64,000 bases of DNA from contig NZ_CP095071.1 of assembly GCF_022919575.1 (NCBI RefSeq), positions 4,412,001 through 4,476,000 on the forward strand, in the 5' to 3' direction. This DNA is from Gracilibacillus salinarum (GTDB lineage Bacteria > Bacillota > Bacilli > Bacillales > Amphibacillaceae). Shown here in pieces: positions 30,321 through 52,329 of this stretch. Made by a program: the position numbers and the translations under genes. The stretch's first letter is position 1; each line of letters starts with the position of its first letter. The notes beneath the pieces were generated by a model that saw only the letters and a program-made list of their open reading frames with translations, made no database searches and had not been told where the DNA came from.

Positions 30321-30351
30321 AAAAAGTGTGTATATTTAACAAAAATTATGA

Positions 30352-31529: not shown

Positions 31530-31547
31530 GAAGAAAGGGGTTTTACC

Positions 31548-33638: not shown

Positions 33639-36600
33639 ATGAAAATGCGTTTTATTAAGAAATCATGGCTTCTTTTCGTTTTACTGATCCTCCTTGCTGT
33701 TACAGGATCAATAATCGGAATGCAGCAATCACAAGCAGAAGTCGTTACCAAAACCATAACAATTGATGGAGACAATGTGGATCCAGATAACCGATTTAAA
33801 GGATTTGGTACCGTCTCAGGAAATAATACTTCACGATTATTATTAGATTATAAAGAAGAACATCCAGAAGAATATTGGGAAATTATGAATCAATTATTTA
33901 ATACAGATACGGGTGCTGGGCTAACCCATGTAAAAGTAGAGTTAGGTGCAGATATTAATTCATCATCAGGAACGGAGCCAGCTACGATGCGATTTGAGGA
34001 CGAGCCTGCTAATGTATTGCGAGGAGCTGGGTTCCAATTTGCTGCTGATGCAAAGTCGATCAATCCTGATATTACCACAGAAATCTTACGCTGGGGTGAG
34101 CCACGTTGGTCATGGGAATCAGCTGCAAATCATGAGTATGAAGACCGATATCAATGGTATAAACAAACAATGGATGCGGTATCTCAAGAGTATGGCTTTG
34201 ATTTGGATTATATTGGAATATCTCAAAACGAAAGAGCACAAAATGGTAATGGCAGAAATGAAGTGGAGTGGCTCAAATATTTCACAACCCGCATTAAAGA
34301 AGAAACGAATTATGAAGAAGACTATCAAGATATAAAACTGGTAGCTGCGGATGGCTATCGGGACACTGCCACCATTAGTCGAACATTATTGGATAATCCT
34401 GATCTAATAGATGAAATTGATGTGATCAGTTCTCATTATGGTTTAACTGGTTCGACTGAATTAAACATGTTACAGGAGCAATTAAAAGAAGACGGCAAAA
34501 AACCGAAGGAAGTCTGGGTCTCGGAAGGGATTTCCCCAATGATCAACGCCAGATATCGCGATAACATGGAACCAAACTATAATGGTTTAGGTGGTCGTGC
34601 AGGCATTATCGATGTAACATCACGAATTATTTCTGTTTATTCCTGGGAAGGAGCCAACAATCAGCCACTAAATGCTGTTTCGTTTGATTTTCAGCCATCT
34701 GTTGCAGCCTTTTATCAAGGTGCACAATACAATCCAAAACAACTGATCAGTGCATTTGATCCTTGGTCCGGTTTTTTTGAAACAGATGGTGGTATCCAAG
34801 GAGTCAGACATGTGATGAATTTTACAGAACATGATGATTTATCTACTGAGAAGAATGAACGCTGGCAATATATCGAAGATGCCACCTATAGCGATGGTGA
34901 TTTCTTTGATGGCGGTGTTGATGTCGATACAAGTACACATAACTATATGACATTGAAGGACCCAGAAACAGATGATTATACAACAGTGTTTGCAAACAAC
35001 ACCAGCGACACTCGATCCTATACAATTGAAGCAAAAAATTTGAGCGGTAAAGAAAATGCCGAAGTATTTGTTTGGGAAACGAAAGGGCCTGGAGAAGGAG
35101 AATCTTATGATGCGAACTGGTTCAAAAATGTTAATGTCATAGAGCCTGAAGAGGGTGTTTATCAAGTAGAGGTGAAGCCATATTCGATAGTAACAATCAC
35201 TACGTTGGATAAGGAAGCTGAAATCGATGGTTTTGAATATCAGTCAGATCCTGTTGACTTAACAGAAGATACCATTATGTCATTACCATATAGCGATGAT
35301 TTCGAATATGATGATTATCCGCTTGACGATCAGGATCGTGACTATGTTGATAGAAGAGGTGGAACACCCCGATATACAACGGATCAAATTGGAGCTTTTG
35401 AAGTAGTGAAACAAGCAACTAAACAAGCAGAAGAAGGCAGTTTTGAAAAAGAGTCTCTTGATATTCCAGAGGCAGAAGCACACGGAAATATGCTTCAGCA
35501 AAAAATAACCACCGATAACATTGGAGCGGACTGGGCTGTTTGGGGAGGAACAGACGGTGCGGCAGCGGACGTTAATCCGAATACCAATATAGGAGATTTT
35601 CGCTGGGTGAACTATAAAGCATCCTATGACTTTCTATTAGATACACATACGGAGACAGTACAAGGCAGAGATAACTATGCGCTTATCGGAGTCCGACAAG
35701 TGAAAGCAGGCTGGAGTGATTCTCAGGCAACCTATAATGCCAAAATATTTGCAGATGGAAAATACGAGATTACAAAACTGGGAAGTGTAGTCAAACAAGG
35801 ATCAATCGAAGGTTTTGATCATACTGTGTGGCATCGATTAGCGTTTGAAGCGAAAGAAAATGTGTTTACGCTCTATTTAGATGGTGAGTCTGTTGCATCG
35901 TACACGGATGAGGATGCAACTGTAATGGCAGGGAGAGTAACGCTTGGTACAGGTTACTATGAAACATTAATTGATAATTTGAGCATTGAACCGATTGAGG
36001 GTTATCCATATAAATCTTTGAAAGTAGATAATGCGCAAGGACAAATTTATCCATCAGAAGATGCTGCATTAAATAATGAAGACGAATGGAATCCAATTGG
36101 TTATGTGGGAGATTGGGAGTTTGTACAATCTGGATATGCCCATTTTAATCGTACACAAATGACAACATCCAGTGATTATCCAGTTTGGAACGGTTATCTC
36201 GTTGAACATACAGATACCACTTCGGAACAAGGGGCACTCCATAAAGTATTCTATTCGGGAGATTGGGGCTCCAACAGCAGCAATGCTTGGGGAAATGATG
36301 GTGATTCATTTGAGATTACATTTGAAGGAAATGCGATTCGCTTGTACGGAGAAACGAATCCCAACAATGGAACGGCAGATGTTTATTTAGACGGAGAACT
36401 TGTTGGTGAAGCAAATTACTTAAACAACAGCTCGATAGTAAAAGAAGTATGGTCTGTTGAAGATCTCGAGGAAACTGAGCATACACTTAAGGTTGTTTCG
36501 AAAGAATCATACACAAGTTTTGTTAAAGCAGAGATTGATACAGATCAACCAATAGAAGCAGAATCTGTTACGACATTAGCACCAAATGATTTCACTTCTA

Positions 36601-39600
36601 TTTCAGCTGATTCAGAGATCGAAAATGAAGAAAATACCGTTTATGCTTACAGGGAAAATGGAAGTACTTGGGGAGCGAATAATAATAATGCCTGGGCTAA
36701 TTTTAACGATAATCCGTATATTTATATTAACTTTACAGGCACAGGAATCGATTATTTAGCTGGCATGGGAAATGATACAACCTACCAGTTTGAATTGGAC
36801 GGAGAAGTTGTAGGTGATTATGATGTCGGAGAAGATGGAATCCGTTATTCAGTTCGAGATTTGGAGGATACGGAACATACATTAAAAGTTTCACTCGGAG
36901 ATAATGAAGTGAAAGAAACCTATATGGATTACCGTGGCGTAACTATCTATTCTACACCTGAACAAAGTGATAATAAGTTTATCTTCGACTTTGAAGGTAG
37001 TGGTTTTAATCTGTTTGGTGCAACTCCTGACGCCCTGGTGGATGTGTATATTGATGGGGAACAAATGGAAAAGGAATATCGAGTTCATGCTACAGGAGAT
37101 CGACAAACTTTTTATCATCTTAGAGGTTTGGACGTAGAAGAGCACACTGCTGAAATCGTTGTAAGAGGCGGGGGTCTTACATTAGATGGTATAGATGTAA
37201 TTAGTGAAGCCAGTACATCAGATTCTGCAGACCCAGATGAACCAACGGAACCGTTAGAGGACCAGTTGTTAGCCCATTATGATATGACGGTATCAGGTAA
37301 TCAATTAGTAGACATAACCGGCAATGAAATAGATGCCACTTTAGCAGGGTTTACAGCAAATGATGTCACAGAGGAAGACGGTGACAAAGTATTGCCTTTT
37401 ACTGGAGATGAATCGAAGTTTGTGACCTTGCCAAAAGGGTTAATTACAGATGAAACATTTACGATTGAAACAACTTTTAAAACAAGCACAGGTGCCAATC
37501 ACTGGCTATATAGCATAGGAACGAAGCAAGGGGACTGGCCAAACGTTAACAATTATATATTCTTAAATCCAAATCAGGCGGACAACACGGTTCGTTTTGG
37601 TATAAAAGATGAAGAAAAAGAGTTATTGTTCCAGGATGCGAGCATCGATACGGGAGAATATAATACATTTACAGCTGCATTTAAAGAAGGAAACATTGCC
37701 CTCTATTTAAATAGTGTGCCAGTTGGTTCTATTCATCATGATTACACCGTACAAGATATCTTGAACAATGGCGTGACAGATGGAGAGGATTTCATTGGCT
37801 ATATTGGCAAATCACTTTATAATCCGGACCCGCCATTTGAAGGAACTTTGAAGGATTTTAAAGTATATAATTATACGTTGAATGAACAAGAAATTACTGG
37901 ATATAGCGATCAGGAGCTTGTGGAACAGGCTAAAGCTGAATTGAATCTGGAAAGTGAAGTAACAGAAGATCTATCTTTGCCAAATCAGGTAAAAGTTAAC
38001 GGATTAACAGCGGATGTCAGCTGGGAATCCAATAATGAAACCTATCTGTCAAAAGAGGGATCGGTAACTCGTCCAACTTATGATGAAGGGGATCAGGAAG
38101 TGGTTTTAACAGCAACAATAACAAAAGGAGAAAGCACTGCGGAAAAAGAATTCCAAATTACGGTCAAGCGTTTGCCACAAGACATCGACTTATTGAAAGA
38201 AGCTGCAGCGGCATTAAAAGTATATAACATTACTGATGTTCGAGGTAATATCACATTGCCAACAGAGGGTGAAAATGGGACAATAATCAGCTGGAAGTCA
38301 GAAGAGGAATCGATAATTAGTAATACTGGAGAGGTCACTCGTCCTGCCAATGGAGAAGGGGATGCAAAGGTTGACCTTGAAGCTGCTATTACGTTAAATG
38401 GTCAGACCCTTACGAAATCTTTTGTCGCAAATGTGAAGGAAGCACCGGAAGAAAAAGATTACAAAGGATATCTATTCAGTTATTTTACAGGAGAAGGTAC
38501 TGCCAATGGTGAGCAAATATATTATGCCTTAAGTGAAGGGAATGACCCTTTACATTGGCAGGAGTTAAATAACGGAGAGCCGGTTATTACGTCAGATTTG
38601 GGTGAAAAAGGGTTACGGGATCCATTTATTATTCGATCCCCTGAAGGTGATAAGTTTTATATGATTGCAACAGATTTGAAAATCCATGGAAATGGCGATT
38701 GGGGAAGAGCGCAGACGGAAGGTAGCAGATCAATCATGGTCTGGGAATCCACAGACCTTATTAATTGGTCTGAACAACGAATGGTCGAAGTAGCTCCAAA
38801 AGAAGCGGGAAACACATGGGCACCAGAAATTTTCTATGATAAATCCATCGGGAAATATGTTATTTTCTGGGCGTCCAAATTGTATGATAGTGAAGAAAAC
38901 AGAAACTCCGGGGATAGTTATCAACGAATGATGTATACGACGACTCGAGATTTCCATACCTTTAGTGAACCAGAAATCTATCTGGATTATGGTTATTCTG
39001 TGATTGATACAACAATTATTGAAGATGAAGGAAAAATCTATCGTTTTACCAAAGATGAACGAGGGAATGATCCGGAAAACGCTCCGAATGGCAAATTTAT
39101 TTTACAAGAATCAGGTGATTCTGTACTGGATCCGGATTTTGAATTAATAAAAGAAGGAATCGGAAAAGGAACAATCAGCCAAGGGGAAGGTCCTGCTATC
39201 TTCAAATCAAATACGGAAGATAAATGGTACTTGTTCATTGATGAATTCGGCGGAAGAGGATATGTTCCATTTGAAACGACTGATTTGGCATCGGGCGAAT
39301 GGTCGGTATCAGAAGACTATGAGTTACCTGACAGCCCTCGTCATGGTACAGTTTTGCCAGTGACGCAAGAAGAGTATGATGCATTGATGGAGAATATTCC
39401 AAGCGAAATAGAAAACGATAAGATCTCCGTTAGTGGAATATCCGTAGAGCGGTCTGAAGTAGCTTTAACAACGGGAGAAGAAGCATTGATTAATGTGACG
39501 GTAGAGCCAGCAGATGCGACCAATCAAAACGTTTGGTACAGCAGCAATAATCCGGAAGTTGTATCCGTGACCGAAGAGGGTATGCTGCAGGCAGTTGAAG

Positions 39601-40415
39601 AAGGAGAGGCACTGGTGACAGTCACTTCGGCTGATGGCGGCTATACGGCAGTTGTCAGCGTAACCGTTTCTGAGAAAGAAGAGCCGGAACAACCAGTACT
39701 AGATACAGAATTAACGTTGGGTCAATCTCAAGAAGTTTTTGCCGGAGAGACTTATACGATTAAAGGTATGAGTGCTCAAATGAAGATGCCGGAAGATTTA
39801 CCAGCAGGTACGATGATCACCGTTAATCCGTTTGAGGTGAAGGATACCAATTATGAGGACTTAATGATAGCCGGTGAAGCATTTAATGTGGAAATGGCGT
39901 ATCCAGATCATGCAACAGAGCCGACAGGTAAATTTACAATCTATCTAGGTTATCAAACGGGAGCCAATACAGAGGATATAGCAATCTACTATTATAATGA
40001 ATCAAAGGATAACTGGAAACGTGTTGGTGGAAAGGTGCATCGGGAAGACCAAGTTATTTCGTTGGATGTATCACATTTCTCAAGCTACGGTGTGTTTGCA
40101 GAAGCTGAGGAGGATTCTACTGGTAATGAGGATAACTCAGACAATGAAGCAGGTTCGAATGATCATACAGATCAATCTGCTGAAGACGATGAGGCTAATG
40201 ATCAACAATCAACGGATGAGCCAGCTGATATGAATAATCAAGAGAGTGGATCTGATCAAAATGATGACCAGCCTTCAACTGAAAAAGAAAATAAATCCAA
40301 TAATCAACTGCCAAATACAGCAACCAATACATTTAACTACCTAGGAACAAGTATTATTCTCTTGTTAATGGGTGTAGTAATTATGGTTATAAGAAGGAAA
40401 ACTGTAAAATATTAA
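33639..40415 (+). CDS. Giant surface-anchored GH59-GH43 multidomain glycosidase
   Basis: This protein has 2,258 residues. In order: signal peptide (1-33); GH59 galactocerebrosidase-like domain (36-545) with putative acid/base Glu198 in YIGISQNER and nucleophile Glu296 in VWVSEGIS; the GH59-associated lectin-like sandwich (546-790); three sugar-binding-like beta-sandwiches (795-1190); a LamG-type domain (1205-1420); two degenerate Ig-like repeats (1425-1600); a GH43 five-bladed propeller (1606-1915) with Asp1661, Asp1790 and Glu1850 (EGP); a BIg2 domain (1930-2010); a module also found in the protein at 44380 (2020-2153); an acidic linker; LPNTA (2224-2228), a hydrophobic helix and a basic tail. 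Two exo-enzymes on one wall-anchored chain suggest attack on galactan with arabinose side chains. Subfamily specificity is inferred. Confidence 0.9.
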   Translation: MKMRFIKKSWLLFVLLILLAVTGSIIGMQQSQAEVVTKTITIDGDNVDPDNRFKGFGTVSGNNTSRLLLDYKEEHPEEYWEIMNQLFNTDTGAGLTHVKVELGADINSSSGTEPATMRFEDEPANVLRGAGFQFAADAKSINPDITTEILRWGEPRWSWESAANHEYEDRYQWYKQTMDAVSQEYGFDLDYIGISQNERAQNGNGRNEVEWLKYFTTRIKEETNYEEDYQDIKLVAADGYRDTATISRTLLDNPDLIDEIDVISSHYGLTGSTELNMLQEQLKEDGKKPKEVWVSEGISPMINARYRDNMEPNYNGLGGRAGIIDVTSRIISVYSWEGANNQPLNAVSFDFQPSVAAFYQGAQYNPKQLISAFDPWSGFFETDGGIQGVRHVMNFTEHDDLSTEKNERWQYIEDATYSDGDFFDGGVDVDTSTHNYMTLKDPETDDYTTVFANNTSDTRSYTIEAKNLSGKENAEVFVWETKGPGEGESYDANWFKNVNVIEPEEGVYQVEVKPYSIVTITTLDKEAEIDGFEYQSDPVDLTEDTIMSLPYSDDFEYDDYPLDDQDRDYVDRRGGTPRYTTDQIGAFEVVKQATKQAEEGSFEKESLDIPEAEAHGNMLQQKITTDNIGADWAVWGGTDGAAADVNPNTNIGDFRWVNYKASYDFLLDTHTETVQGRDNYALIGVRQVKAGWSDSQATYNAKIFADGKYEITKLGSVVKQGSIEGFDHTVWHRLAFEAKENVFTLYLDGESVASYTDEDATVMAGRVTLGTGYYETLIDNLSIEPIEGYPYKSLKVDNAQGQIYPSEDAALNNEDEWNPIGYVGDWEFVQSGYAHFNRTQMTTSSDYPVWNGYLVEHTDTTSEQGALHKVFYSGDWGSNSSNAWGNDGDSFEITFEGNAIRLYGETNPNNGTADVYLDGELVGEANYLNNSSIVKEVWSVEDLEETEHTLKVVSKESYTSFVKAEIDTDQPIEAESVTTLAPNDFTSISADSEIENEENTVYAYRENGSTWGANNNNAWANFNDNPYIYINFTGTGIDYLAGMGNDTTYQFELDGEVVGDYDVGEDGIRYSVRDLEDTEHTLKVSLGDNEVKETYMDYRGVTIYSTPEQSDNKFIFDFEGSGFNLFGATPDALVDVYIDGEQMEKEYRVHATGDRQTFYHLRGLDVEEHTAEIVVRGGGLTLDGIDVISEASTSDSADPDEPTEPLEDQLLAHYDMTVSGNQLVDITGNEIDATLAGFTANDVTEEDGDKVLPFTGDESKFVTLPKGLITDETFTIETTFKTSTGANHWLYSIGTKQGDWPNVNNYIFLNPNQADNTVRFGIKDEEKELLFQDASIDTGEYNTFTAAFKEGNIALYLNSVPVGSIHHDYTVQDILNNGVTDGEDFIGYIGKSLYNPDPPFEGTLKDFKVYNYTLNEQEITGYSDQELVEQAKAELNLESEVTEDLSLPNQVKVNGLTADVSWESNNETYLSKEGSVTRPTYDEGDQEVVLTATITKGESTAEKEFQITVKRLPQDIDLLKEAAAALKVYNITDVRGNITLPTEGENGTIISWKSEEESIISNTGEVTRPANGEGDAKVDLEAAITLNGQTLTKSFVANVKEAPEEKDYKGYLFSYFTGEGTANGEQIYYALSEGNDPLHWQELNNGEPVITSDLGEKGLRDPFIIRSPEGDKFYMIATDLKIHGNGDWGRAQTEGSRSIMVWESTDLINWSEQRMVEVAPKEAGNTWAPEIFYDKSIGKYVIFWASKLYDSEENRNSGDSYQRMMYTTTRDFHTFSEPEIYLDYGYSVIDTTIIEDEGKIYRFTKDERGNDPENAPNGKFILQESGDSVLDPDFELIKEGIGKGTISQGEGPAIFKSNTEDKWYLFIDEFGGRGYVPFETTDLASGEWSVSEDYELPDSPRHGTVLPVTQEEYDALMENIPSEIENDKISVSGISVERSEVALTTGEEALINVTVEPADATNQNVWYSSNNPEVVSVTEEGMLQAVEEGEALVTVTSADGGYTAVVSVTVSEKEEPEQPVLDTELTLGQSQEVFAGETYTIKGMSAQMKMPEDLPAGTMITVNPFEVKDTNYEDLMIAGEAFNVEMAYPDHATEPTGKFTIYLGYQTGANTEDIAIYYYNESKDNWKRVGGKVHREDQVISLDVSHFSSYGVFAEAEEDSTGNEDNSDNEAGSNDHTDQSAEDDEANDQQSTDEPADMNNQESGSDQNDDQPSTEKENKSNNQLPNTATNTFNYLGTSIILLLMGVVIMVIRRKTVKY

Positions 40416-40447
40416 AGATCGGGCGTCCAGCCCGATCTCTTTATTTT
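40416..40447 (+). terminator. Terminator after the GH59 gene
   Basis: AGATCGGGC and GCCCGATCT form a 9-pair stem with a GTCCA loop, followed by CTTTATTTT. Confidence 0.9.
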
Positions 40448-40449
40448 CA

Positions 40450-41130: not shown

Positions 41131-41245
41131 TAATGGACAGAATTCTTGAGAAAGAGAAAAACTGTCTATAAGAATCTGTCTTAAAGTCAATTACATATAT
41201 GTTATCCATGTATAATAAACAGTTATCATAAGTTATAAAGTATAG

Positions 41246-41265
41246 TATAATGGAATCGGTTTCGA
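41246..41265 (+). promoter_or_regulatory. lacI-2 promoter -10 with overlapping operator
   Basis: TATAAT (41246-41251) is followed immediately by GGAATCGGTTTCGA, the GAAA-YCGG-TTTC-type palindrome, suggesting autoregulation by the LacI protein that starts at 41298. Confidence 0.65.
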
Positions 41266-41297
41266 ATAAAATTTGAATTTTAATTTAGGTGACAAAA

Positions 41298-42344
41298 ATG
41301 AAGAAAAACATCACTATCTATGATATTGCTAAGGAAGCAAACGTTTCTCCCTCTACCGTATCACGTGTATTAACGGGTAACGAAAGAGTGAAACCGGTAA
41401 CCAAGCAGAAGGTAGAAGCAATAATCGAGAAATATAACTTCCGTCCAAACAGCCTGGCTAGAAGTTTATTATATAAACAATCGAAAATGATCGGTATTAT
41501 TTTACCTGATATTAATCACCCTTTTTTCTCTACATTAGTGCAAAAGTGTGAAGCTCATGCCTTGTCTTTAGGCTATACTTCCTTTTTGTGCAATTCGATG
41601 AATGACACAAATGTTGAATCTACCTATTTGCAAAACCTAATCGACAAGCAAGTGGACGGAATTCTATTTTTGGGAGGCCGTATTAATCAAGTCGATACAG
41701 ATCCTAAACTTGCAGAAGAGATGAATAGCATTATGGATCGTGTTCCAGTCGTATTTGTTAACGGTGAAATGGCAGGTGTAGATGCTCATGTGATTCAAAC
41801 AGACGAAAAGGAAGGAATCACTAATGTCATTGATTTATTGCACAACTTTAATCATCAACGAATTGCTTTTTTAGGGGGAGAAGAAGGTGTAACGTCAAGA
41901 GAAGTGAAGGTTAACGCCTTTAAAGAAGCGCTTGCTCGACATCACTTACCTGTTCATGAACAGTGGATTATGAATGAGGGATTTGATATAGAATCAGGAG
42001 AAGAACTTGCTAACCAGTTACTTTATTTAAATGAGAAGCCAACAGCGATTGTATGTGTAAATGATTTTGTAGCTATTGGTGTCATCAAAACGTTGAATAA
42101 ATTTGGTATAAGCGTTCCTGATGATATATCTGTAATAGGGTTTGATGATATTTATTTAGCGAAGGATTTTCCACCAGGTATTACATCTGTCAGCCAGAAC
42201 TATCAGGAACTGGGAAAGACTGCAGTTGATGTATTAGTGAAATTAATAAATGGCGAAAGCGCCCAAAAGCATAGTATCGTACCAACGAAGCTACAGTTAA
42301 GAAATTCTTGTCAATTAGTAAAAAGAGAAGAGGTTGACAAATAA
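41298..42344 (+). CDS. LacI/GalR-family transcriptional regulator (galactan locus)
   Basis: This is a 348-residue repressor. Its DNA-binding domain ITIYDIAKEANVSPSTVSRVLTGNERVKP is textbook LacI, with hinge YNFRPNSLARSL. The effector domain includes MIGIILPDINHPFFSTLV, DGILFLGG, AVDVLVKLINGE and IVCVNDFVAIGVIKTL. ATG 41298 is preferred over GTG 41289, because AGGTG (41286-41290) is its ribosome site. Related palindromes at its own promoter, at GH35 (42456) and twice before the CE7 operon (30358, 30462) define a likely regulon that links the two polysaccharide loci. The inducer may be a galactosyl sugar, judged from the GH35 neighbour. Confidence 0.93.
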   Translation: MKKNITIYDIAKEANVSPSTVSRVLTGNERVKPVTKQKVEAIIEKYNFRPNSLARSLLYKQSKMIGIILPDINHPFFSTLVQKCEAHALSLGYTSFLCNSMNDTNVESTYLQNLIDKQVDGILFLGGRINQVDTDPKLAEEMNSIMDRVPVVFVNGEMAGVDAHVIQTDEKEGITNVIDLLHNFNHQRIAFLGGEEGVTSREVKVNAFKEALARHHLPVHEQWIMNEGFDIESGEELANQLLYLNEKPTAIVCVNDFVAIGVIKTLNKFGISVPDDISVIGFDDIYLAKDFPPGITSVSQNYQELGKTAVDVLVKLINGESAQKHSIVPTKLQLRNSCQLVKREEVDK

Positions 42345-42471: not shown

Positions 42472-42499
42472 ATCATTGAATTATACAGGGGGAGACAAC

Positions 42500-44221
42500 A
42501 TGCTAACAACTAAAAATGGTCAGTTTTATTTAGATGGGAAGCCGTTTCAAATCTTATCAGGTGGTATTCATTATTTCAGAATTGTTCCGGAACATTGGGA
42601 AGACCGTCTGCAAAAATTAAAGGCAATGGGTCTGAATACAGTGGAAACATATATTCCATGGAACTTTCATGAACCGAAAAAAAGTGAGTTTCATTTTACG
42701 GGACTTGGCGATGTAGAGAAATTTATTGAACTGGCTGATCAGGTTGGTTTATACGTGATTCTAAGGCCATCACCATATATTTGTGCAGAATGGGACATGG
42801 GTGGGTTACCTTCATGGCTGTTAAAAGAAGACAAATTGGTGCTTAGAAGCAGTGAACCAACATATCTGCAGCACGTTACAGACTATTATGATGTATTATT
42901 GCCAAAATTTAAGAAACACCTGTATCAAAACGGTGGGCCAGTGATAGCCATGCAAATTGAAAATGAATATGGTGCATATGGCAATGATTTGGATTATTTG
43001 TCCTATCTTAAAAAATTGTACAAACAGCATGGACTGGATACTTTCTATTTTACATCAGACGGGCCGGAGTTTATTGAACAAGGTTCGCTGCCAGATGTAA
43101 CGACGACACTTAATTTTGGTTCGAAAGTGGAAAGTGCGTTTGCAGCATTAGATAAGTTCAAACCTGGCTCTCCAAAAATGGTAGCAGAATTTTGGATTGG
43201 CTGGTTTGATTACTGGTCCGGTGAGCATCATACGAGAGATGCGCAGGATGCAGCGGATGTTTTTCGTGAATTAATGGAACGAAAAAGCTCCGTGAATTTC
43301 TATATGTTCCATGGCGGAACAAATTTCGGCTTTTATAATGGTGCCAATCATTACGATATTTATTATCCGACCATTACAAGCTATGATTATGACAGTTTGC
43401 TAACAGAAAGTGGTCAGCCAACTGAGAAATACCGTAAAGCAAAAGAAGTATTGGCAGATTATATAGAAGTACCGGAGGATTACGAGAGCAAGATTCAAAC
43501 TAAATCTTTTGGAGAAGTTCAAGTAACAGAATCAGTCAGTATCTTTGATACACTGACTGACATTAGCCGAAAAGTACAACATATTACACCATTATCGATG
43601 GAGCAGATCGATCAATCTTACGGTTATACACTTTACAAAACAACAGTAAACAGACAAGGTGACTTAAAGTTTCATATCGATGCCATTCACGACCGTGGTT
43701 TTGTCTATATTAATGGCGAGTACGTGGATACCGTATATAAAAATGATAAAGATACGGAGCGAACCCTGCATTTCCCGAAACAAGAGAATGTGTTGGAGAT
43801 TTTAGTGGAAAACATGGGGCACGCAAACTATGGAGAACACTTAAGTGATCAAAAAGGACTAGTGAAAAACATTTGGCTAGGCGAGCAATATTGGTTTAAT
43901 TGGGACATGTATGCTATTGAGTTAGATACACTGCCTGAAAATTATAGCGGATCAGAAAGTCGCTACCCTAAATTTTTCAAAGGTCAATTTACCATATCTG
44001 AGACAGCGGATACCTACGTTGACCTGGAAGGATTTACGAAAGGTAATGTCATTATCAACGGATTTAACTTGGGGAGATATTGGGTAACAGCAGGACCACA
44101 GCGCAGATTGTATGTACCAGGTCCATTGTTAAACGAAGGAGAAAACGAAATCGTCATTTTGGAATTGGAAGCTGCATCCAAAGATTATATCCAACTAGTG
44201 GATGAGCCAAAATTGTCTTAA
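42500..44221 (+). CDS. GH35 beta-galactosidase
   Basis: This is a 573-residue retaining beta-galactosidase. The family signature GGIHYFRIVPEHWEDRLQKLKAMGLNTVETYIPWNFHEP lies at residues 21-59. The acid/base Glu156 is in MQIENEYGAYG and the nucleophile Glu230 in MVAEFWIGWFDYW. C-terminal beta-sandwiches end in GFNLGRYWVTAGPQRRLYVPG, typical of the short bacterial GH35 type that prefers beta-1,3/1,6-galactosides. ATG 42500 follows AGGGGGAG; the TTG at 42476 is not used. There is no signal peptide, so it cleaves imported galacto-oligosaccharides. It is monocistronic, with a terminator at 44252. Confidence 0.95.
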   Translation: MLTTKNGQFYLDGKPFQILSGGIHYFRIVPEHWEDRLQKLKAMGLNTVETYIPWNFHEPKKSEFHFTGLGDVEKFIELADQVGLYVILRPSPYICAEWDMGGLPSWLLKEDKLVLRSSEPTYLQHVTDYYDVLLPKFKKHLYQNGGPVIAMQIENEYGAYGNDLDYLSYLKKLYKQHGLDTFYFTSDGPEFIEQGSLPDVTTTLNFGSKVESAFAALDKFKPGSPKMVAEFWIGWFDYWSGEHHTRDAQDAADVFRELMERKSSVNFYMFHGGTNFGFYNGANHYDIYYPTITSYDYDSLLTESGQPTEKYRKAKEVLADYIEVPEDYESKIQTKSFGEVQVTESVSIFDTLTDISRKVQHITPLSMEQIDQSYGYTLYKTTVNRQGDLKFHIDAIHDRGFVYINGEYVDTVYKNDKDTERTLHFPKQENVLEILVENMGHANYGEHLSDQKGLVKNIWLGEQYWFNWDMYAIELDTLPENYSGSESRYPKFFKGQFTISETADTYVDLEGFTKGNVIINGFNLGRYWVTAGPQRRLYVPGPLLNEGENEIVILELEAASKDYIQLVDEPKLS

Positions 44222-44295: not shown

Positions 44296-44379
44296 AGGAG
44301 GTGTTAACTTTCTTTTAACAACTTTTTGATGTTTGTCGCTTAGCCAGATTAATAATCAGAATTAGAAAGGATGGATAAT

Positions 44380-47300
44380 ATGAAACGGTATGTTCGTACA
44401 TTCAGTGTTGTTACAATCATTTTTATTTTGATGGGTATATTCAGTCCCGTTTCAACCCTTGCAAAAGAATCTGCACAAAAACAACAAAATACGGTTGATA
44501 CTACTATCAAATTGGACCCTAGTTATCAACACGATGCATTTGATGGATGGGGGACAGCATTAGTATGGTTTGCGAATGTGACGGGTGGATGGCCGGATCA
44601 AATTCGTAATAAATTAGCTGACGCGCTATTTGATGAAAGCGGTTTAAATTTAAATATTGCCAGATATAATATCGGAGGAGAAGATTCACCTGAAACAGAG
44701 GAATATATGAGGCCAGGTGGTGCTGTTCCTGGATATTGGAATCGTCCCGCTGAATATGATCCACCAGAAAATGCTGGTGAGGACTGGCAGGAACAAGAAG
44801 ATTGGTGGGATCCGGAAAACCCTAATCACTGGGATTGGAATAAAGATAGTAATCAACAATGGTGGCTTGAAGCAGCGCAAGAGCGCGGTGCTGATACATT
44901 TGAAGCCTTCTCCAACTCCGCTCCGTATTTTATGACAAAAAGTGGTTATACCTCAGGAAATGAAAATTCATCAGAAGACAACCTCCAAGAAGACCAATAT
45001 CAAAATTTTGCAACGTATTTAACTAAAGTGGTGAAGTACTTTGCAGAAGAAAAAAATATTCAGTTTCAGACATTGTCACCTGTTAATGAGCCTAATACGG
45101 ACTACTGGGGTGCTGGAAACAGACAGGAAGGCTCACATTGGGACCCAGCATCACAGGCCAAGATCATCAATGAAGTGAGTAAACAGCTTGAACCTTTAAA
45201 TCTTAATACACAGGTAGCTGCCATGGATGAAACAAACCCACAGAAATTTCGTCAAAACTGGGATCAATACGACCAGACAACGAGAAATAATATTGATCAA
45301 CTTAATGTACATACGTATTGGCCTGCTGAAAGAAATGCAGCGAGAGATGTCGCAAAGAGTGCAGACAAACGCTTGTGGATGTCAGAGGTGGATCTGGGAC
45401 CAAGTGGTATTCCTCAGGACTTCGACAACATAGAACCAGGCTTAGCATTGTCGGAAAGGATTACATCAGATATTACCAACTTGGAGTCAAAAGCCTGGGT
45501 ACTTTGGCAAGCCATTGAAGACCAAGAAAATATGAACGCCGAAAACGAAAATATGAATTGGGGTCTCATCCACGCAGATTTCACTCCGGATAATTTTGAC
45601 ACACTTGAATGGCATAAAAATAAAAAATATTACACAATGGCAAACTATACAAAATTCATTCGTCCTGGTGATCATGTGATTAATAATGATAATGAAAATA
45701 CCCTTGCTTCTATTAATGCTTCTAAAAAACAAGCTGTGGTGGTATATACGAATACATCCGATACGGAAAAGAATATTGATATTGATTTATCAGGATTTAA
45801 ACAAGTGGATCCATCAGCGACTGCTACGCCACATGTTACTTCAGCCTCAGCAAATCTGCAACAAGGGGAAGAAATTGAGATAGAAGACGAGAAATTAACG
45901 ACAAGAGTTGAACCAAAATCTGTTACCACTTTTGTGATCAATGGTGTAGCAGGTGTGGATCAAGCTGAAAATTATATTAAACCTGAACAATCATACCATA
46001 TAGAAAATGTGAACAGTGAAAAAGTTTTAGATCTGAGTGATAGTTCAGTAGTTCAATTTTCAAAAGATCGTGACAGAACAACCCAACAATGGCAATTACA
46101 AAAAGTTACAGATGGATATACCTCTAAGGAGCTATATCGAATAAAGAATCTTGCCGGTGACCAGGTCTTAACCCATAATGATGGAACTGTAACATTAGCT
46201 CCATTTCAGAACTTAGATGCACAGAAATGGATGCTATCGACTTCAGGAAACGATATTTATACCTTTATTAACAAAGAGAGTGGCACCCTTTTAGAGGTAG
46301 GTGATCAGTCGACGAATGAAGGTGCTTCTGTAGGGGTGTGGAAAGCAACTTCTGGCGCTAATCAACAGTGGACAATCACAGAATCAGGTATTGAAAAAGT
46401 AGAGGATGTTAAAGTGTGGACATCAGTTGGAACAGAACCTGCACTTCCAGAAACCGTTCATGTGTATTACAGTGATGAAACAGAAGATGATGTCTCTGTC
46501 AATTGGGAGTCAATCGATGATTACCAATATCAATCAGAAAGAATGTTTAAAGTAGAGGGAGAAATTTCAAACTCTGCAAACATAGCAACTGCAACAGTTT
46601 ATGTTAGTGATATAAAGGAATTAGAAGTGTTAAAACAAAAAACAGTGAAAGGAAATGCGCCGAATTTACCAGATACAGTAACGGCAACCCTAACAAATGG
46701 CGAGAAAGTGGATGTAGCGGTTAATTGGAATGAAGTTGATTCTGATGTTTATGCTGAATTCGGGAAATTCACCGTAAAAGGTGTTATTGAAGGATCAAAC
46801 ATGCAAGCAATTGCCTATATACAAGTGGTAAAAGGTGGCCTCGAAAATGTGGCATTAAATGAAAGTGACCAGCCTTTTCCAAAAGCTTCAGCCTCGTTTA
46901 CTGGACAATGGGATGATGTTAATCAGTTAAATGATGGTGATTACTCTGATGCACGATGGACAAATTGGGACCCAAACGAATGGCGAGAAAAGGATTGGGT
47001 TGAAATAGATTTTGGAAATGAGAAATTACTATCCCATGTTACCTTATCTTTTTATGATGATGAAGGCGGTACAAGACCTCCAGAATCGTTATATTTGGAA
47101 TATTGGAATGGAAATGAATGGACGAAAATAGATGGGTCAGATCTCAATGTGGAAGCAGAAAATGATATAACTATTGACTTTGAAGAAATCACTACTTCTA
47201 AGATAAGAGCACAGTTAACGGCCATGGCTGATACATGTATTGCGATTAGGGAAATGGAAGTGTACGGAACAGGGGATATCCCAGTTGTTGGTGATCAGAC

Positions 47301-48198
47301 CACCTTAGATAATATATGGGTAAATGAGCAACCACTTGAAAACTTTGAATCTACTAATTACAACTATGAAATGGAATTAGAACAAGGTGAAGAAATGCCT
47401 GTTATTGAGGTAGAAACGAGTGATTTGTTAGCCACTTATGAAACGGTATTGCCAGAGTCAGTACCCGGGGAGGCAAAAATAATAGTAACAGCAGAGAATG
47501 GAGAAGACACTGCAACATATACAATCGATATAACTGAAAAGGAACCTGAACCAACGAATCCAGAAGATGATTCAGAAGAGGGAGACGGTGATGACTCTAC
47601 TGACGATTCTGATCAGGAAAAGACTGTAAATTACGAAATAAATCTAAGTGAAAAAGAGAATTTGATTTATACAGAAGTTGAAGCAGGTCAAACATATAAA
47701 ATACAAGGCTCAAAGTCGAGAATAAAAATGCCATCCGATCTACCAGCAGGAACGAAACTAGCGATTTATGAAAAAGATATCATGGAAACCAATCACGCTG
47801 GATTGCAAAAATCTGGGGATGGTTACACGTTTGCTTTTAAATATCCTGAAGGAGCCGAATCGCCAGACAAAAATTTTCAGTTAACCCTTGAATATGATGA
47901 AAAAGTTGAAGGGGATAAAGACATTTATTATTACAATAAAGAAAGCGATCAATGGAAAGCACAAGCTGCAGAGGCTGATAAATCAGAACAAACATTGACC
48001 GTTATGGTTTCTCACTTTTCTAGTTATGCGGTATTGGTAAAGACATCAGTGGAAGAAAACATGGATAATGAAGAAAATGCGAGTAACAATAACTTACCAA
48101 ATACGGCGACTAACCAATTTAATTTATTATTTGCTGGTTTATGTTTGCTCGTTATAGGGATCTTTGCCTGGAGAGACAGACGAAGTCGAATGAAATAA
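44380..48198 (+). CDS. Surface-anchored GH30 endo-beta-1,6-galactanase-like protein
   Basis: This protein has 1,272 residues. Order: signal peptide (1-28); GH30 catalytic domain (about 41-522) with acid/base Glu237 in SPVNEPNT and nucleophile Glu336 in LWMSEVDLG; ricin-B-like lectin domain (535-670); two Big-type repeats (675-818); an F5/8-type C discoidin-like CBM (822-963); a cadherin-like repeat (975-1055); an acidic linker; the terminal module shared with the GH59 protein (about 1084-1222); LPNTA (1239-1243), hydrophobic helix and basic tail. FDGWGTALVWFANVTGGWP is characteristic of GH30 subfamily 5 endo-beta-1,6-galactanases. AAAGGATGG before ATG 44380 sets the start; ATG 44371 is an alternative. 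It would open beta-1,6-galactan side chains of arabinogalactan at the cell wall. Confidence 0.92.
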   Translation: MKRYVRTFSVVTIIFILMGIFSPVSTLAKESAQKQQNTVDTTIKLDPSYQHDAFDGWGTALVWFANVTGGWPDQIRNKLADALFDESGLNLNIARYNIGGEDSPETEEYMRPGGAVPGYWNRPAEYDPPENAGEDWQEQEDWWDPENPNHWDWNKDSNQQWWLEAAQERGADTFEAFSNSAPYFMTKSGYTSGNENSSEDNLQEDQYQNFATYLTKVVKYFAEEKNIQFQTLSPVNEPNTDYWGAGNRQEGSHWDPASQAKIINEVSKQLEPLNLNTQVAAMDETNPQKFRQNWDQYDQTTRNNIDQLNVHTYWPAERNAARDVAKSADKRLWMSEVDLGPSGIPQDFDNIEPGLALSERITSDITNLESKAWVLWQAIEDQENMNAENENMNWGLIHADFTPDNFDTLEWHKNKKYYTMANYTKFIRPGDHVINNDNENTLASINASKKQAVVVYTNTSDTEKNIDIDLSGFKQVDPSATATPHVTSASANLQQGEEIEIEDEKLTTRVEPKSVTTFVINGVAGVDQAENYIKPEQSYHIENVNSEKVLDLSDSSVVQFSKDRDRTTQQWQLQKVTDGYTSKELYRIKNLAGDQVLTHNDGTVTLAPFQNLDAQKWMLSTSGNDIYTFINKESGTLLEVGDQSTNEGASVGVWKATSGANQQWTITESGIEKVEDVKVWTSVGTEPALPETVHVYYSDETEDDVSVNWESIDDYQYQSERMFKVEGEISNSANIATATVYVSDIKELEVLKQKTVKGNAPNLPDTVTATLTNGEKVDVAVNWNEVDSDVYAEFGKFTVKGVIEGSNMQAIAYIQVVKGGLENVALNESDQPFPKASASFTGQWDDVNQLNDGDYSDARWTNWDPNEWREKDWVEIDFGNEKLLSHVTLSFYDDEGGTRPPESLYLEYWNGNEWTKIDGSDLNVEAENDITIDFEEITTSKIRAQLTAMADTCIAIREMEVYGTGDIPVVGDQTTLDNIWVNEQPLENFESTNYNYEMELEQGEEMPVIEVETSDLLATYETVLPESVPGEAKIIVTAENGEDTATYTIDITEKEPEPTNPEDDSEEGDGDDSTDDSDQEKTVNYEINLSEKENLIYTEVEAGQTYKIQGSKSRIKMPSDLPAGTKLAIYEKDIMETNHAGLQKSGDGYTFAFKYPEGAESPDKNFQLTLEYDEKVEGDKDIYYYNKESDQWKAQAAEADKSEQTLTVMVSHFSSYAVLVKTSVEENMDNEENASNNNLPNTATNQFNLLFAGLCLLVIGIFAWRDRRSRMK

Positions 48199-48363: not shown

Positions 48364-49032
48364 ATGCAGTTTGATACATCTGGAGGAATATTCAAAATTT
48401 GTGAGTGGCTCTATCGCCTGGCGTTACTTCAAATGATCGCCATCATCTTTACATTGGCTGGAGGGATTATTTTTGGGATTTTCCCAGCAATTACAGCAAT
48501 GTTCGCGTTAACTGGTAAATGGCTGGCGCAAGAGGATTTTGCAATCACAAAAGCATTCTGGAAAGCGTATAAGCAGCATTTTGTGAAAAGTAATCTAGTT
48601 GGACTGGCTGTGTTACTAACAGGAACAGCCTTATATATCGATTTTGCTTTAGTGCAAAATTTTTCAGGTATCCTTTATTACCTTATTCTTAGCAGCAGTG
48701 CGACCGTTCTTGTCTTGGCTTCAATCGTCTTGCTCTATGTGTTTGGTCTCATGATTACCTTTCCAGACAGTAAGCTTATTGGCCTTATCAAAAGAGCGAT
48801 CCAGATTAGTACGCTGTTCCCATTACAAACGGTTTGGATGGGGTTATCTTTAATCAGTTTTCTATTTATTTGCTGGGTGATACCAGGGATTGGTTTTCTA
48901 TTTATGGGCAGCGGCTTAGCTTGTATAGCTATGTACTTTAGTCGATTTGCTTTAACCAGAATTCAATCGATACAAATTCCAACAGCACGTACGTCTATTT
49001 TGAAAGAGAGAGGTGTTATCCATGGCGAGTAA
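48364..49032 (+). CDS. YesL-like DUF624 membrane protein, second copy
   Basis: This is a 222-residue membrane protein with about five hydrophobic helices. GIFKICEWLYRLALLQMIAIIFTLAGGIIFGIFPAITAMFAL is the DUF624 N-terminal signature. Further helices lie near 80-98, 103-135, 155-175 and 180-200. Its role is not established, but YesL heads the yes importer operons of Bacillus and here likewise precedes two permeases. The gene end overlaps the next start by 11 bases, so they are translationally coupled. AAGGAAAGGGGG precedes ATG 48364. It belongs to a different branch from the copy at 17632, judged by low visible identity. Confidence 0.87.
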   Translation: MQFDTSGGIFKICEWLYRLALLQMIAIIFTLAGGIIFGIFPAITAMFALTGKWLAQEDFAITKAFWKAYKQHFVKSNLVGLAVLLTGTALYIDFALVQNFSGILYYLILSSSATVLVLASIVLLYVFGLMITFPDSKLIGLIKRAIQISTLFPLQTVWMGLSLISFLFICWVIPGIGFLFMGSGLACIAMYFSRFALTRIQSIQIPTARTSILKERGVIHGE

Positions 49033-49972
49033 ACAAGCAGCATCCGTTGAGGAGTGGCAACAGCATGATACTTCCAAGAATACGAAAAAATCAAGAATCG
49101 AAAAAAATGAAAGCCTGGCAGGGCTGCTATTTATTTCACCGATGTTTATCGGTATCTCCGTTATCGTTCTGTTTCCGATTGTAGCAACTTTTATTCTAGC
49201 GTTTGCCGACTGGAAATTTGTCACAGGGATTGATCAGTTACAATGGGTAGGTTTTGATAACTTCCGTGCACTGCTAGACGATGAGAAGTTTATTAAATCG
49301 ATCATAAACAATGCCGTTTTTATTCTGACTGTGCCGATTACAATGATCATTGCCTTATTATTAGCGGTGATTATTGATAAAAATGTTTACTTAAAAAGTT
49401 ATTTTAAAGTAGCTTTCTTTATGCCGTATATTTCTAGTGTGGTGGCGATCGCAGTGGTATGGCAAGTGCTTTTTCATCCTTCACAGGGTCCGATTAATCA
49501 GGTGCTAATGTCATTGGGAATTGATAATCCGCCGACCTGGATTTCAGACCCTAATTTTGCACTAATTTCATTAATGACAATTCATATTTGGATTTCTATC
49601 GGTTTTAGTCTGATCGTCTATATTGCCGGATTGCAATCGATACCGAAAGAGCTCTATGAAGCGGCTGATATCGATGGTGCTAACAGCTGGTATAAGTTTA
49701 AAAGCATTACGTTTCCGATGATTTCACCGACATCTTTTTTTCTGTTAATTACCGGGATTATTGCATCGTTTAAAGTGTTTGATTTAATTGCTGTACTGAC
49801 ACAAGGTGGGCCGCTTAATTCTACGACCATGCTTGTCTGGCATCTATACGAAAGAGCATTTCTGGAACTGGATGTCGGTTATGCGTCAGCTATTGCTGTA
49901 GTCTTATTCCTATTTGTCTTTCTGATTACGATCATTCAATGGATCGGACAGAAAAAATGGGTCAATTATTAA
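49022..49972 (+). CDS. Sugar ABC transporter permease (MalF/LplB type), galactan locus
   Basis: This is a 316-residue permease with six predicted helices; the first is LLFISPMFIGISVIVLFPIVATFIL. The EAA-type loop reads ELYEAADIDGANSWYKFKSITFPMI. I place the start at ATG 49022 (MASKQAAS) with GAGAGAGGTG as ribosome site; it overlaps yesL. It forms the importer with the next permease and the lipoprotein at 50938. No ATPase is encoded nearby. The likely cargo is galactan-derived oligosaccharides released by the surface GH59/GH43 and GH30 proteins. Confidence 0.92.
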   Translation: MASKQAASVEEWQQHDTSKNTKKSRIEKNESLAGLLFISPMFIGISVIVLFPIVATFILAFADWKFVTGIDQLQWVGFDNFRALLDDEKFIKSIINNAVFILTVPITMIIALLLAVIIDKNVYLKSYFKVAFFMPYISSVVAIAVVWQVLFHPSQGPINQVLMSLGIDNPPTWISDPNFALISLMTIHIWISIGFSLIVYIAGLQSIPKELYEAADIDGANSWYKFKSITFPMISPTSFFLLITGIIASFKVFDLIAVLTQGGPLNSTTMLVWHLYERAFLELDVGYASAIAVVLFLFVFLITIIQWIGQKKWVNY

Positions 49973-49990
49973 TGGAAAGGTGTGATTGGG

Positions 49991-50830
49991 TTGAAGAAAG
50001 AACGACGCTTTGATGTAAAGAAGCTGGTGAGCACGATTATTTTATTCTTTTGCAGTATTGCCTTTTTACTTCCCTTCATTTGGATGTTATCAACGTCTTT
50101 AAAAATTGAGGCGGATGTATTTAAATATCCGATTGAATGGATTCCTTCCAGATGGAATGGCATTGCGAACTATCAGGAAGTATGGTTTGGTGAACAGCCA
50201 TTTTATTTATATTATTGGAATTCAATCAAGGTAGCTGTGTTAACAACGGTTATTTCAGCAACGGTTTCTGCGTTAGCTGCGTATGGTTTCTCTAAAGTCC
50301 GATTTCCAGCAGGCAGTTGGCTGTTTTTGGTGGTATTAGCCACATACATGGTTCCTCCACAAGCAAGCCTGGTACCACAATTCATTTTATATCGTTATTT
50401 AGGATTGTTTGATACACATATTGGTTTGATTTTATTAGGAAGTTTTAGTGTACTGGGTACGTTTATGCTTCGGCAATTTTTCATAGGGATTCATAATGAT
50501 TTTATTGATGCAGCAAAAATTGATGGAGCCGGCCACTGGCGGATCTTCTGGCGTATTGCCTTGCCAATTGTCAGACCAGCAGTTGCCACCTATGCGATTT
50601 TACGATTTATCTGGACATGGAATGACTATCAAAATCCGCTAATTTTCTTAAGAACGGATGCATTATATACGATTCAACTTGCCATGCAGAAATTTACGAC
50701 ATTGAATGGAAGTTTTTACACATTGATTATGGCAGCAGCTGTATCCGCTATACTGCCATTGCTAATCGTCTTTATACTTGGACAAAAACATGTTATTGAT
50801 GGTATCGCTCTAGGTGGTGTGAAAGGATAG
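49991..50830 (+). CDS. Sugar ABC transporter permease (MalG type), galactan locus
   Basis: This is a permease of about 279 residues. Helix 1 is LVSTIILFFCSIAFLLPFIWMLSTSLK, a typical MalG start, and the coupling loop reads DFIDAAKIDGAGHWRIFWRIALPIVRPA. The C-terminus GQKHVIDGIALGGVKG is also typical. The start codon is uncertain: TTG 49991 has GAAAGG about 10 bases upstream, while GTG 49982 is too close to it. It is co-transcribed with the previous permease. Confidence 0.9.
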   Translation: MKKERRFDVKKLVSTIILFFCSIAFLLPFIWMLSTSLKIEADVFKYPIEWIPSRWNGIANYQEVWFGEQPFYLYYWNSIKVAVLTTVISATVSALAAYGFSKVRFPAGSWLFLVVLATYMVPPQASLVPQFILYRYLGLFDTHIGLILLGSFSVLGTFMLRQFFIGIHNDFIDAAKIDGAGHWRIFWRIALPIVRPAVATYAILRFIWTWNDYQNPLIFLRTDALYTIQLAMQKFTTLNGSFYTLIMAAAVSAILPLLIVFILGQKHVIDGIALGGVKG

Positions 50831-50898
50831 GTAAAAAAAGTGCTGTCAAAGGTAAAAATAGTGATATGTGATCATTTTCCTATATGATAGCATTTAAT

Positions 50899-50914
50899 TT
50901 GTAAGGGTTTACAA
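50899..50914. promoter_or_regulatory. cre-like palindrome with GG centre, before binding-protein gene
   Basis: TTGTAAGGGTTTACAA is palindromic and equals a cre site except for G in place of the central C. The same variant is at 4693. It lies 24 bases before the start of the lipoprotein gene. Confidence 0.4.
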
Positions 50915-50937
50915 AAACAAAACAGGGGGTTTGTTGA

Positions 50938-52329
50938 ATGAATGTAAAAAGCAAAGCATGGATGTTGTTACTAGGTTTGGTATGTATCGCTATCTTGATG
51001 ACTGCTTGTAATACGGGGGAGGATGAGCCGGCTGCAAGCTCTGATGATGCGAGTAATGAAGATACAAATTCTGAAACAAATGATTCAGATGAGCCAGTTA
51101 AAATTATGTTTCACACGCATGGTAATGAAGCTTCCTACAATTGGTCAGAAACGATTCCGGCATTTGAAGAAGCCCACCCTAATATTGATGTGGAACTAGT
51201 CATTCTTAGTGAGAAAGGTGACACGAATGAAGCACTGCAGAAGCTGGATCTTGCAGCGTCCTCTGGTGAGCAGCTTGATGTGTTAATGTTTAGTGATCCA
51301 GCATCATATGCACAACGAGTAGATTTAGGTATGGTAGCACCAATTGATGAATTTATTGAAGAAGAAGGATTTGAAGTGAGTGAAGAGTATAAGGTAAACA
51401 CCAAGCTAGGTGACAGCTATTACGCATTACCTGGAAAGTTTAACCCATGGTATGTACTGGTAAACAAAGACCATTTAGAAGAAGCTGGTCTTGAAATGCC
51501 AACTGACTGGACTTGGGATGAATTTGCCGAATATGCAAAACAGCTAACGACTGATGACCATTATGGTACGTACTTCCATGGCCCGCAAAATGGTGGCTGG
51601 ATGGAATATATGAAACTAGCCTTAGCAAGTAAAGCTGAAAATACGGAATTTTTACGAGCGGATGGCAGCTCGAACTTTACTGACCCTATGTTAAAAAAAT
51701 CATTAGAGCTTCGCTGGCAAATGGAGAAAGAAGATAAGTCCGCAACACCTTATACCGATATTATGTCACAGCAGCTGCATTATCGTGATCAGTTCTTTAA
51801 TCAAGATGCCAGCCTCGTCACAATTGGAAGCTGGATGAATACGGAACTTGGTGGTACGGATCAATTCCCGTTAAACTTTAATGTAGGTGTTGCGCCATAC
51901 CCTAAAAATGATGAGGGGGATGAAGGTGGTTATACACCGGTAACAACGGATTATATGGCGGTAGCATCCAGCTCTGAACACAAAGAGGCAGCGTATGAAT
52001 TCATTCGCTGGTACACGACAGAAGGTCAAATTGTTCAAGGTAAAAATATTCCTTCATGGAATGGTGTAGGTGATGACGAATTAGAAAGTATTGTGACGAC
52101 AATTCTTGAGGATACAAATAATCCAGAAAAAGTAGACAAAGAAGGACTAATTTCCGTTTTAAAAAATTCAAAAGCATCCGAAATTATTCCTCCTGCACCA
52201 TATCAGGCTGAGATCTATGAAATGGTAAATGAAGAATACGAAAAATTGATTTATGAAGAGCAAGATATTGATGCCACGATAGAAGCGATGGATCAACGGG
52301 CTAACGAGATTATCGAAAATAATCAATAA
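50938..52329 (+). CDS. Carbohydrate ABC transporter solute-binding lipoprotein, galactan locus
   Basis: This is a 463-residue family-1 solute-binding protein. Signal peptide MNVKSKAWMLLLGLVCIAIL is followed by lipobox LMTAC (Cys24) and a long acidic Asp/Glu/Ser linker. The mature domain shows PVKIMFHTHGNEASYNW, QLDVLMFSDPASYAQRVDLGMVAPIDEFI and YEFIRWYTTEGQIVQG. ACAGGGGG lies upstream of the ATG. Its 107-base separation from the permeases and the operator-like palindrome there suggest an extra promoter giving higher expression. It probably delivers galactan oligosaccharides to the permease pair. Confidence 0.92.
   Translation: MNVKSKAWMLLLGLVCIAILMTACNTGEDEPAASSDDASNEDTNSETNDSDEPVKIMFHTHGNEASYNWSETIPAFEEAHPNIDVELVILSEKGDTNEALQKLDLAASSGEQLDVLMFSDPASYAQRVDLGMVAPIDEFIEEEGFEVSEEYKVNTKLGDSYYALPGKFNPWYVLVNKDHLEEAGLEMPTDWTWDEFAEYAKQLTTDDHYGTYFHGPQNGGWMEYMKLALASKAENTEFLRADGSSNFTDPMLKKSLELRWQMEKEDKSATPYTDIMSQQLHYRDQFFNQDASLVTIGSWMNTELGGTDQFPLNFNVGVAPYPKNDEGDEGGYTPVTTDYMAVASSSEHKEAAYEFIRWYTTEGQIVQGKNIPSWNGVGDDELESIVTTILEDTNNPEKVDKEGLISVLKNSKASEIIPPAPYQAEIYEMVNEEYEKLIYEEQDIDATIEAMDQRANEIIENNQ

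Follow-up and report, generated by a model that had tools for sequence, protein, structure and literature searches.

What might a bacterium gain from joining a glycoside hydrolase (GH) family 59 domain and a GH43 domain in one wall-anchored chain? The question is raised by an open reading frame (ORF) at 33639-40415 (+) in a 64,000-nucleotide stretch of the Gracilibacillus salinarum chromosome (NZ_CP095071.1, positions 4,412,001 to 4,476,000), which we refer to as the window. GH59 is the family of galactocerebrosidase (GALC), the human enzyme lost in Krabbe disease. The solved GH59 structures that we found are of animal galactocerebrosidases only, and where PMC6556953, PMC7889515 and PMC8151561 touch on bacterial GH59, it appears there as annotation only. 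Our answer, towards which we lean with some reserve on the basis of sequence comparison, is that the chain would be a wall-anchored arabinofuranosidase and exo-beta-galactosidase for uronate-bearing type II arabinogalactan, by which the cell would most likely feed on branched galactans of plants.

GH59 and GH43 catalytic domains share one chain

The ORF encodes a single chain of 2258 residues with both catalytic domains, as an original prediction made from the sequence had proposed, and the Pfam profiles of both families score above their cut-offs. PF02057 (GH59) reaches 255.9 bits against a cut-off of 27 and is covered at profile positions 1-292 of 294, while PF04616 (GH43) reaches 55.1 bits against 32.2, the GH32 profile PF00251 being weaker (27.2, cut-off 22.1). 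The lectin module, both sets of catalytic residues and the terminal sortase signal, all part of the same prediction, were likewise recovered:

33639..33740, +, signal-like N-terminal segment (residues 1-34); basic start and hydrophobic core, judged by eye
33795..34814, +, GH59 catalytic domain (residues 53-392); PF02057 E=6.2e-76; galactocerebrosidase 4ccc/3zr5 E=6.2e-19
34230..34232, +, Glu198, putative acid/base, aligned to GALC; E in 38/38 rows
34524..34526, +, Glu296, putative nucleophile, aligned to GALC; E in 38/38 rows
34836..35273, +, region after the GH59 barrel (residues 400-545, boundaries set by us; the GALC alignment extends to residue 579)
35436..35990, +, GALC-type C-terminal lectin domain (residues 600-784); PF21708 33.1 bits, cut-off 27
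36300..36539, +, CE2_N-like beta module (residues 888-967); PF17996 (cut-off 27.9) gives 35.5 bits with the full chain and 19.2 bits with the module by itself
36591..37373, +, two further modules (residues 985-1245, boundaries set by us), conserved in GH59 relatives; weak CE2_N match, no profile above cut-off
37413..37895, +, Laminin_G_3 (LamG) domain (residues 1259-1419); PF13385 57.2 bits
37926..38441, +, two aBig_2 (atrophied bacterial Ig) domains (residues 1430-1601); PF20578 in two stretches, E=3.2e-44
38454..39398, +, GH43 propeller (residues 1606-1920), probably closest to GH43_22; PF04616, NF052546, propeller fold
38619..38621, +, Asp1661, putative general base; D in 113/113 rows
39006..39008, +, Asp1790, putative pKa modulator; D in 113/113 rows
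39186..39188, +, Glu1850, putative general acid; E in 113/113 rows
39429..39653, +, Big_2 domain (residues 1931-2005); PF02368 38.2 bits
39681..40088, +, C-terminal beta domain (residues 2015-2150), modelled; no family above cut-off; two relatives have a related segment C-terminally in their GH30 proteins
40308..40400, +, LPNTATN sorting signal (residues 2224-2254); NF058670 39.5 bits, cut-off 32

The two catalytic glutamates of GH59 are thus conserved in the alignment with GALC, as is the Asp/Asp/Glu triad of GH43 in its own. Glu198 and Glu296 correspond to Glu182 and Glu258 of GALC. In the predicted model the GH43 domain adopts the five-bladed propeller fold, and the aBig_2 pair has a predicted local distance difference test score (pLDDT) above 80 in nearly all blocks. 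Foldseek searches with this 976-residue multidomain model returned mixed and mostly unspecific beta-sandwich and propeller matches, among them lectin-like domains of clostridial neurotoxins, from which we draw no inference; the structural (VIA) alignments cover almost only the propeller. A model of residues 40-1235, containing the GH59 part, reached a pLDDT of 47 from only seven sequences and was kept out of the fold search.

Two sortase (PF04203) matches in the genome accompany the LPXTATN signal and mark the protein as a sortase substrate. The same genome (G000) has 21 LPXTATN signals in open frames of 239-2267 residues, a large wall-anchored set, one of them just upstream of the window (G000:C1:4410685).

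The GH43 domain resembles arabinofuranosidases of subfamily 22

By sequence, the subfamily nearest to the fused GH43 domain is probably GH43_22, whose members are alpha-L-arabinofuranosidases. The NCBIfam model for one of these enzymes, BAD_1527 (NF052546), matches it over its full length at 223.1 bits, a score below the equivalog cut-off of 500, and at E<=1e-5 matches none of six other GH43 domains of the same genome (six of its 13 other PF04616 places). The motif round Asp1790 (SVIDTTII) is like the GH43_22 site of BlArafE and unlike its GH43_34 site, both site sequences being our own translations of mutagenesis primers given in PMC8939339. PMC11264647 describes the rest of the characterised GH43_22 enzymes as arabinofuranosidases.

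BlArafE (BLLJ_1850; GH43_22 + GH43_34) is described in PMC8939339 as a surface enzyme whose two GH43 domains act in turn on an arabinogalactan side chain. It shares with the window protein a surface anchor, two catalytic domains, LamG and Ig-like modules and a GH43_22-type domain. The two differ in the partner domain, which in BlArafE is a second GH43; in the window protein we found one GH43, the other catalytic domain being GH59. Multi-catalytic surface enzymes are already known, and the GH59-GH43 pairing is a new variant of them. The original prediction knew of no characterised chimera of this kind, and none appeared in the open-licence literature among the titles and abstract openings of the matches listed. 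The fusion is not restricted to this one protein, as set out below.

The fusion recurs within one genus

Four overlapping genome sets, from the phylum (398 genomes), the class (398), the order (397) and the family (159), were surveyed for strong GH59 matches (E<=1e-40). Such matches were present in 37 genomes, of which 36 were examined, G1203 with its partial match being left out. Seven of the 36 encode a GH59-GH43 fusion, and all seven belong to Gracilibacillus, where 10 of 17 surveyed members have a strong GH59. Four fusions are long (2258-2270 residues) and carry the sorting motif; the other three (1643-1654 residues) end just after GH43 and are without it. An LPxTA motif also occurs in two unfused GH59 proteins from other genera of the family (L148, L153). 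In the remaining 29 genomes, BLAST and a profile from this GH43 group, with Pfam for five proteins, detected no GH43 in the GH59 protein, so that a distant GH43 could be missed there. Two genomes, those of Halalkalibacterium halodurans and G708, have GH43 as a gene of its own, with GH59 immediately next to it on the downstream side.

In two fused genomes (L004:17166-22325, L152:14629-17760) the next gene encodes a GH43 together with a second, ordinary GH43, a BlArafE-like layout; the GH43 of the L004 gene scores 281 bits to the BAD_1527 model. L006 appears similar by BLAST, and at that place the window has a LacI gene.

The GH43 cassette has probably moved between GH59 backbones

All seven GH43 domains from the fusions group in a single clade (support 99/97; recovered in 98% of 200 bootstrap trees). 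The tree was built on 88 of the 113 rows, leaving out the majority of the Streptomyces rows, a handful of others and L160/L161, which are second copies. In the GH59 tree, by contrast, monophyly of the seven fused rows is rejected (approximately unbiased (AU) test, p=0.00016), which speaks against a single fusion by simple descent for the GH59 part. G428, an unfused GH59, nests among the short fusions, and a clade of the fused rows plus G428 is also rejected (p=0.0046, a value to be read with care, given that the fused group was set by architecture and G428 was added after the first tree). Since the fused GH43 domains form one clade while their GH59 partners do not, the LamG-aBig-GH43 cassette was probably exchanged between GH59 genes and lost in G428, as these sequence trees suggest; independent fusions of closely related cassettes may be an alternative history.

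The nearest GH43 domains outside the group (81-84% identity) belong to proteins of other Bacilli, either tandem GH43-GH43 (L009, L010, L074, L078) or single (L008, L013). These closest outside kin share the LamG-aBig-aBig-GH43-Big2 cassette and differ in that the N-terminal partner is another GH43 or is missing, and the cassette is therefore a module that takes different partners. Read-through of neighbouring genes was rejected as the origin of the fusion: in the split cases GH43 precedes GH59, opposite to their order in the fusion.

Genes around the fusion

Downstream of the fusion the window carries the following genes:

41289..42344, +, LacI-type regulator (PF00356, PF13377)
42476..44221, +, GH35 beta-galactosidase (PF01301 E=7.7e-121; 4mad E=3.9e-181); no signal-like start by eye
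44371..48198, +, anchored GH30 with ricin-type lectin, F5/8 and Big_4 modules (PF14587; NF058670 39.7 bits)
48364..52329, +, DUF624 gene and ATP-binding cassette (ABC) importer (two permeases, binding protein), by profile scan
52422..55836, +, two-component system of Cache/HAMP histidine kinase and AraC-type response regulator, by profile scan
55833..57533, +, polysaccharide lyase family 33 (PL33)-like lyase (8r75 E=7.4e-34; PL35 9o3q E=9.3e-13); no signal-like start by eye
57545..59350, +, DUF2264 protein (former GH154 family; PF10022 E=1.9e-131), possibly a glucuronate dehydratase; no signal-like start by eye

Among solved structures the catalytic part of the GH30 protein is closest to a secreted endo-beta-1,6-galactanase (24td, E=1.4e-42). 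The highest-scoring chain overall is 8q2h, whose best alignment is with the accessory part. The lyase scores 120.6 bits in phmmer to 8r75, which speaks for homology; 8R75 is a PL33 structure (PMC11848413). The DUF2264 protein matches 8oi4, named a beta-galactosidase, at E=7.7e-28, and 9o4u and 9nwf, named glucuronate dehydratases, at E=4.9e-26 and 3.6e-25. The former GH154 family is proposed in PMC12269599 to consist of uronate dehydratases, glucuronate dehydratase activity being reported there for its members BcGDH and BT_3677. A search of the open-licence literature for DUF2264 together with glucuronidase found nothing.

Upstream, a block at 21082-32891 contains an importer, GH2 (mannosidase-like), GH113 and GH1 genes, plus two genes (29662, 30567) outside the scan; by its gene families it looks like mannan use. 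The carbohydrate region is flanked at 59903-61483 by a transposase with an integrase core (rve) by profile, and on the other side, at 18699-19805, by a transposase-like start seen by eye. An 873-base gap with G+C-rich stretches and no ORF of 100 residues follows the fusion gene (40416-41288). Rfam gave no match over gathering scores, in this gap included, no tRNA was found, and a short palindrome scan of 12 upstream stretches gave no common operator.

The lyase and DUF2264 genes are located with GH59 in other Bacilli too. A PL33-like lyase is present in 30 of the 36 GH59 genomes; in 25 of these it shares a contig with GH59 at a distance of at most 33 kb, and in five it is on another contig. 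PF10022 is present in 33, of which 26 have it on the GH59 contig no more than 35 kb away, a count in which G430 has a piece with an internal stop and G409 a short form, many genomes holding extra copies elsewhere. (The G430 piece, G430:C1:1635646-1636281, is the short DUF2264 gene that lies by the fusion in L152.) Across 249 genomes of the order the lyase occurs in 19, of which 10 are GH59-positive and nine are not among the GH59 matches; it is therefore strongly tied to GH59, yet not confined to it. Even where GH59 is only ∼31-32% identical (L194, L195), it is still accompanied by importer, two-component system, lyase and DUF2264 genes. Two proteins of other Bacillota (L155, L156) also carry GH59 and a GALC-type lectin on a surface anchor with importer genes adjoining, L155 having the two-component system, lyase and DUF2264 genes alongside as well; they differ in having an S-layer homology (SLH) anchor and no GH43 by Pfam. 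The recurring proximity of lyase and DUF2264 genes to GH59 may prove more interesting than the fusion.

A proposed function, and what it has to answer

We infer the substrate of the chain, a type II arabinogalactan, from the way its parts and neighbours fit together: one domain of galactosidase type, one of arabinofuranosidase type, a nearby enzyme resembling endo-beta-1,6-galactanase, and the uronate genes. The secreted, sortase-anchored enzyme would debranch, at the cell surface, a beta-1,3/1,6-galactan carrying arabinofuranose (Araf) and uronic acid. The GH43_22-like domain would first take off alpha-L-Araf caps, after which the GH59 domain would free the terminal beta-D-galactose so uncovered, using two glutamates in a retaining mechanism, while the lectin, LamG and Ig-like modules would bind glycan and space the two active sites; tethering both domains in one chain may bring synergy. 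The neighbouring anchored GH30 would cleave beta-1,6-galactan, and the resulting oligosaccharides might be imported by the ABC importer, to be finished in the cytoplasm by GH35, the lyase and the DUF2264 protein. This order, from arabinose to galactose to import, is modelled on BlArafE and would hold by analogy. Gum arabic side chains, according to PMC8939339, bear rhamnose-glucuronic acid (Rha-GlcA).

The branched galactan at the cell surface that the original prediction had in mind gains from the neighbours (anchored GH30, GH35, importer) and from the recurrent lyase and DUF2264 genes; the surface anchor is absent from the three short fusions. Exo-attack, which it also proposed, suits both families and would be the mode of action.

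Several observations weigh against the arabinogalactan proposal. The protein resembles GALC in its GH59 barrel, both catalytic glutamates and the C-terminal lectin domain, but it is bacterial, surface-anchored and fused to GH43, and where GALC has Trp291 it has Phe, as do 34 of 38 rows. The position of GALC Arg380 lies opposite Asp, in a weakly aligned part. Trp291 and Arg380 are GALC site residues; given both differences, the GALC substrate is not to be assumed for this GH59. The GH43 score is below the NF052546 cut-off, so that a linkage preference is not to be read from that model. Outside the genus, no close match of the window GH35 or GH30 was found round GH59 in the fetched stretches (∼10-20 kb each). 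Inside it the mannan-type genes (GH113, GH2, GH1) stay by GH59 in other members. Of solved structures, the one that the DUF2264 protein matches best is named a beta-galactosidase, not a dehydratase. PF07470 (GH88/GH105), the remover of unsaturated uronate, has no match at E<=0.001 in the single-contig genome, although that genome encodes a uronate lyase as well as a putative glucuronate dehydratase. Finally, the substrates described for PL33 are glycosaminoglycans and gellan, and the word 'arabinogalactan' is absent from the main text of PMC11848413.

Four other explanations have to be considered. The first is that the chain trims galactosylated arabinoxylan, GH43 freeing Araf and GH59 the beta-galactose of xylan side chains. 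GH59-1238 of R. cellulolyticum (S-GH59-UNK-CBM6-DOC; PMC6556953) is, like ours, a bacterial secreted GH59 with accessory modules; it differs in its carbohydrate-binding module (CBM6) and dockerin (DOC), in lacking GH43 and in its xylan-related cluster. That xyl-doc cluster, as described there, has a GH59 enzyme annotated as a putative alpha-galactosidase, whose CBM6 binds xylose, and both arabinoxylan and arabinan are debranched by BAD_1527, on which NF052546 is based (PMC11264647). Against this, the 19 scanned neighbour genes contain no xylanase family except the XynC match of the GH30 protein, at 61.5 against an NCBIfam cut-off of 650. The GH30 itself is also far better matched to the endo-beta-1,6-galactanase than to AcXbh30A (2.3e-16), which we take to be a xylan enzyme, or to the best xylanase-named chain (1.6e-10). 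We consider arabinoxylan an unlikely target.

Slightly less probable again is that the chain belongs to the upstream mannan-type block (GH113, GH1, GH2, importer) and frees beta-galactose from galactosylated mannan. These genes do keep their place in several genus members, where GH1 with GH113 or GH2 lies near GH59. In the stretches fetched from outside the genus, however, GH59 is accompanied by importer, two-component, lyase and DUF2264 genes and not by close matches of mannan-type genes, and mannan side chains would leave the GH43_22-like domain and the uronate genes unexplained.

We give the same low weight to a locus that targets an acidic polysaccharide, whether a glycosaminoglycan or a bacterial exopolysaccharide, whose beta-galactose GH59 would free. 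PL33 enzymes cut glycosaminoglycans and gellan (PMC11848413), and the former GH154 enzyme BcGDH serves chondroitin breakdown (PMC12269599). However, the lyase and the DUF2264 protein have no signal-like starts by eye, so that they would act on imported oligosaccharides, and a glycosaminoglycan sits badly with the arabinofuranosidase-like domain and the endo-beta-1,6-galactanase-like neighbour. Least probable of all is a coincidental fusion without functional coupling, the domains having different substrates and only an anchor in common: the 29 GH59 proteins without a detected GH43 and the nesting of G428 among fused ones would suit it, but one well-supported fused-GH43 clade sits on different GH59 backbones, and separate GH43 and GH59 genes adjoin in two genomes.

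Returning to the arabinogalactan proposal, we tentatively extend it beyond the window, in a form that we would rate somewhat short of an even chance. GH59 of Bacilli would act not on glycolipids but at the cell surface, releasing galactose as one part of a conserved system for uptake of uronate-capped galactan (importer, two-component system, PL33-like lyase, glucuronate dehydratase), to which Gracilibacillus would have added an arabinofuranosidase cassette, passed between GH59 backbones, to give a one-chain debranching machine. A comparison of full-length with truncated multi-catalytic enzymes is, according to PMC8939339, still wanted. The seven natural fusions and their unfused homologues in sister species offer a natural comparison for whether a branched soluble glycan is attacked faster when arabinofuranosidase and galactosidase are linked, and the recurrent bacterial setting suggests a role in glycan use for the GH59 family.

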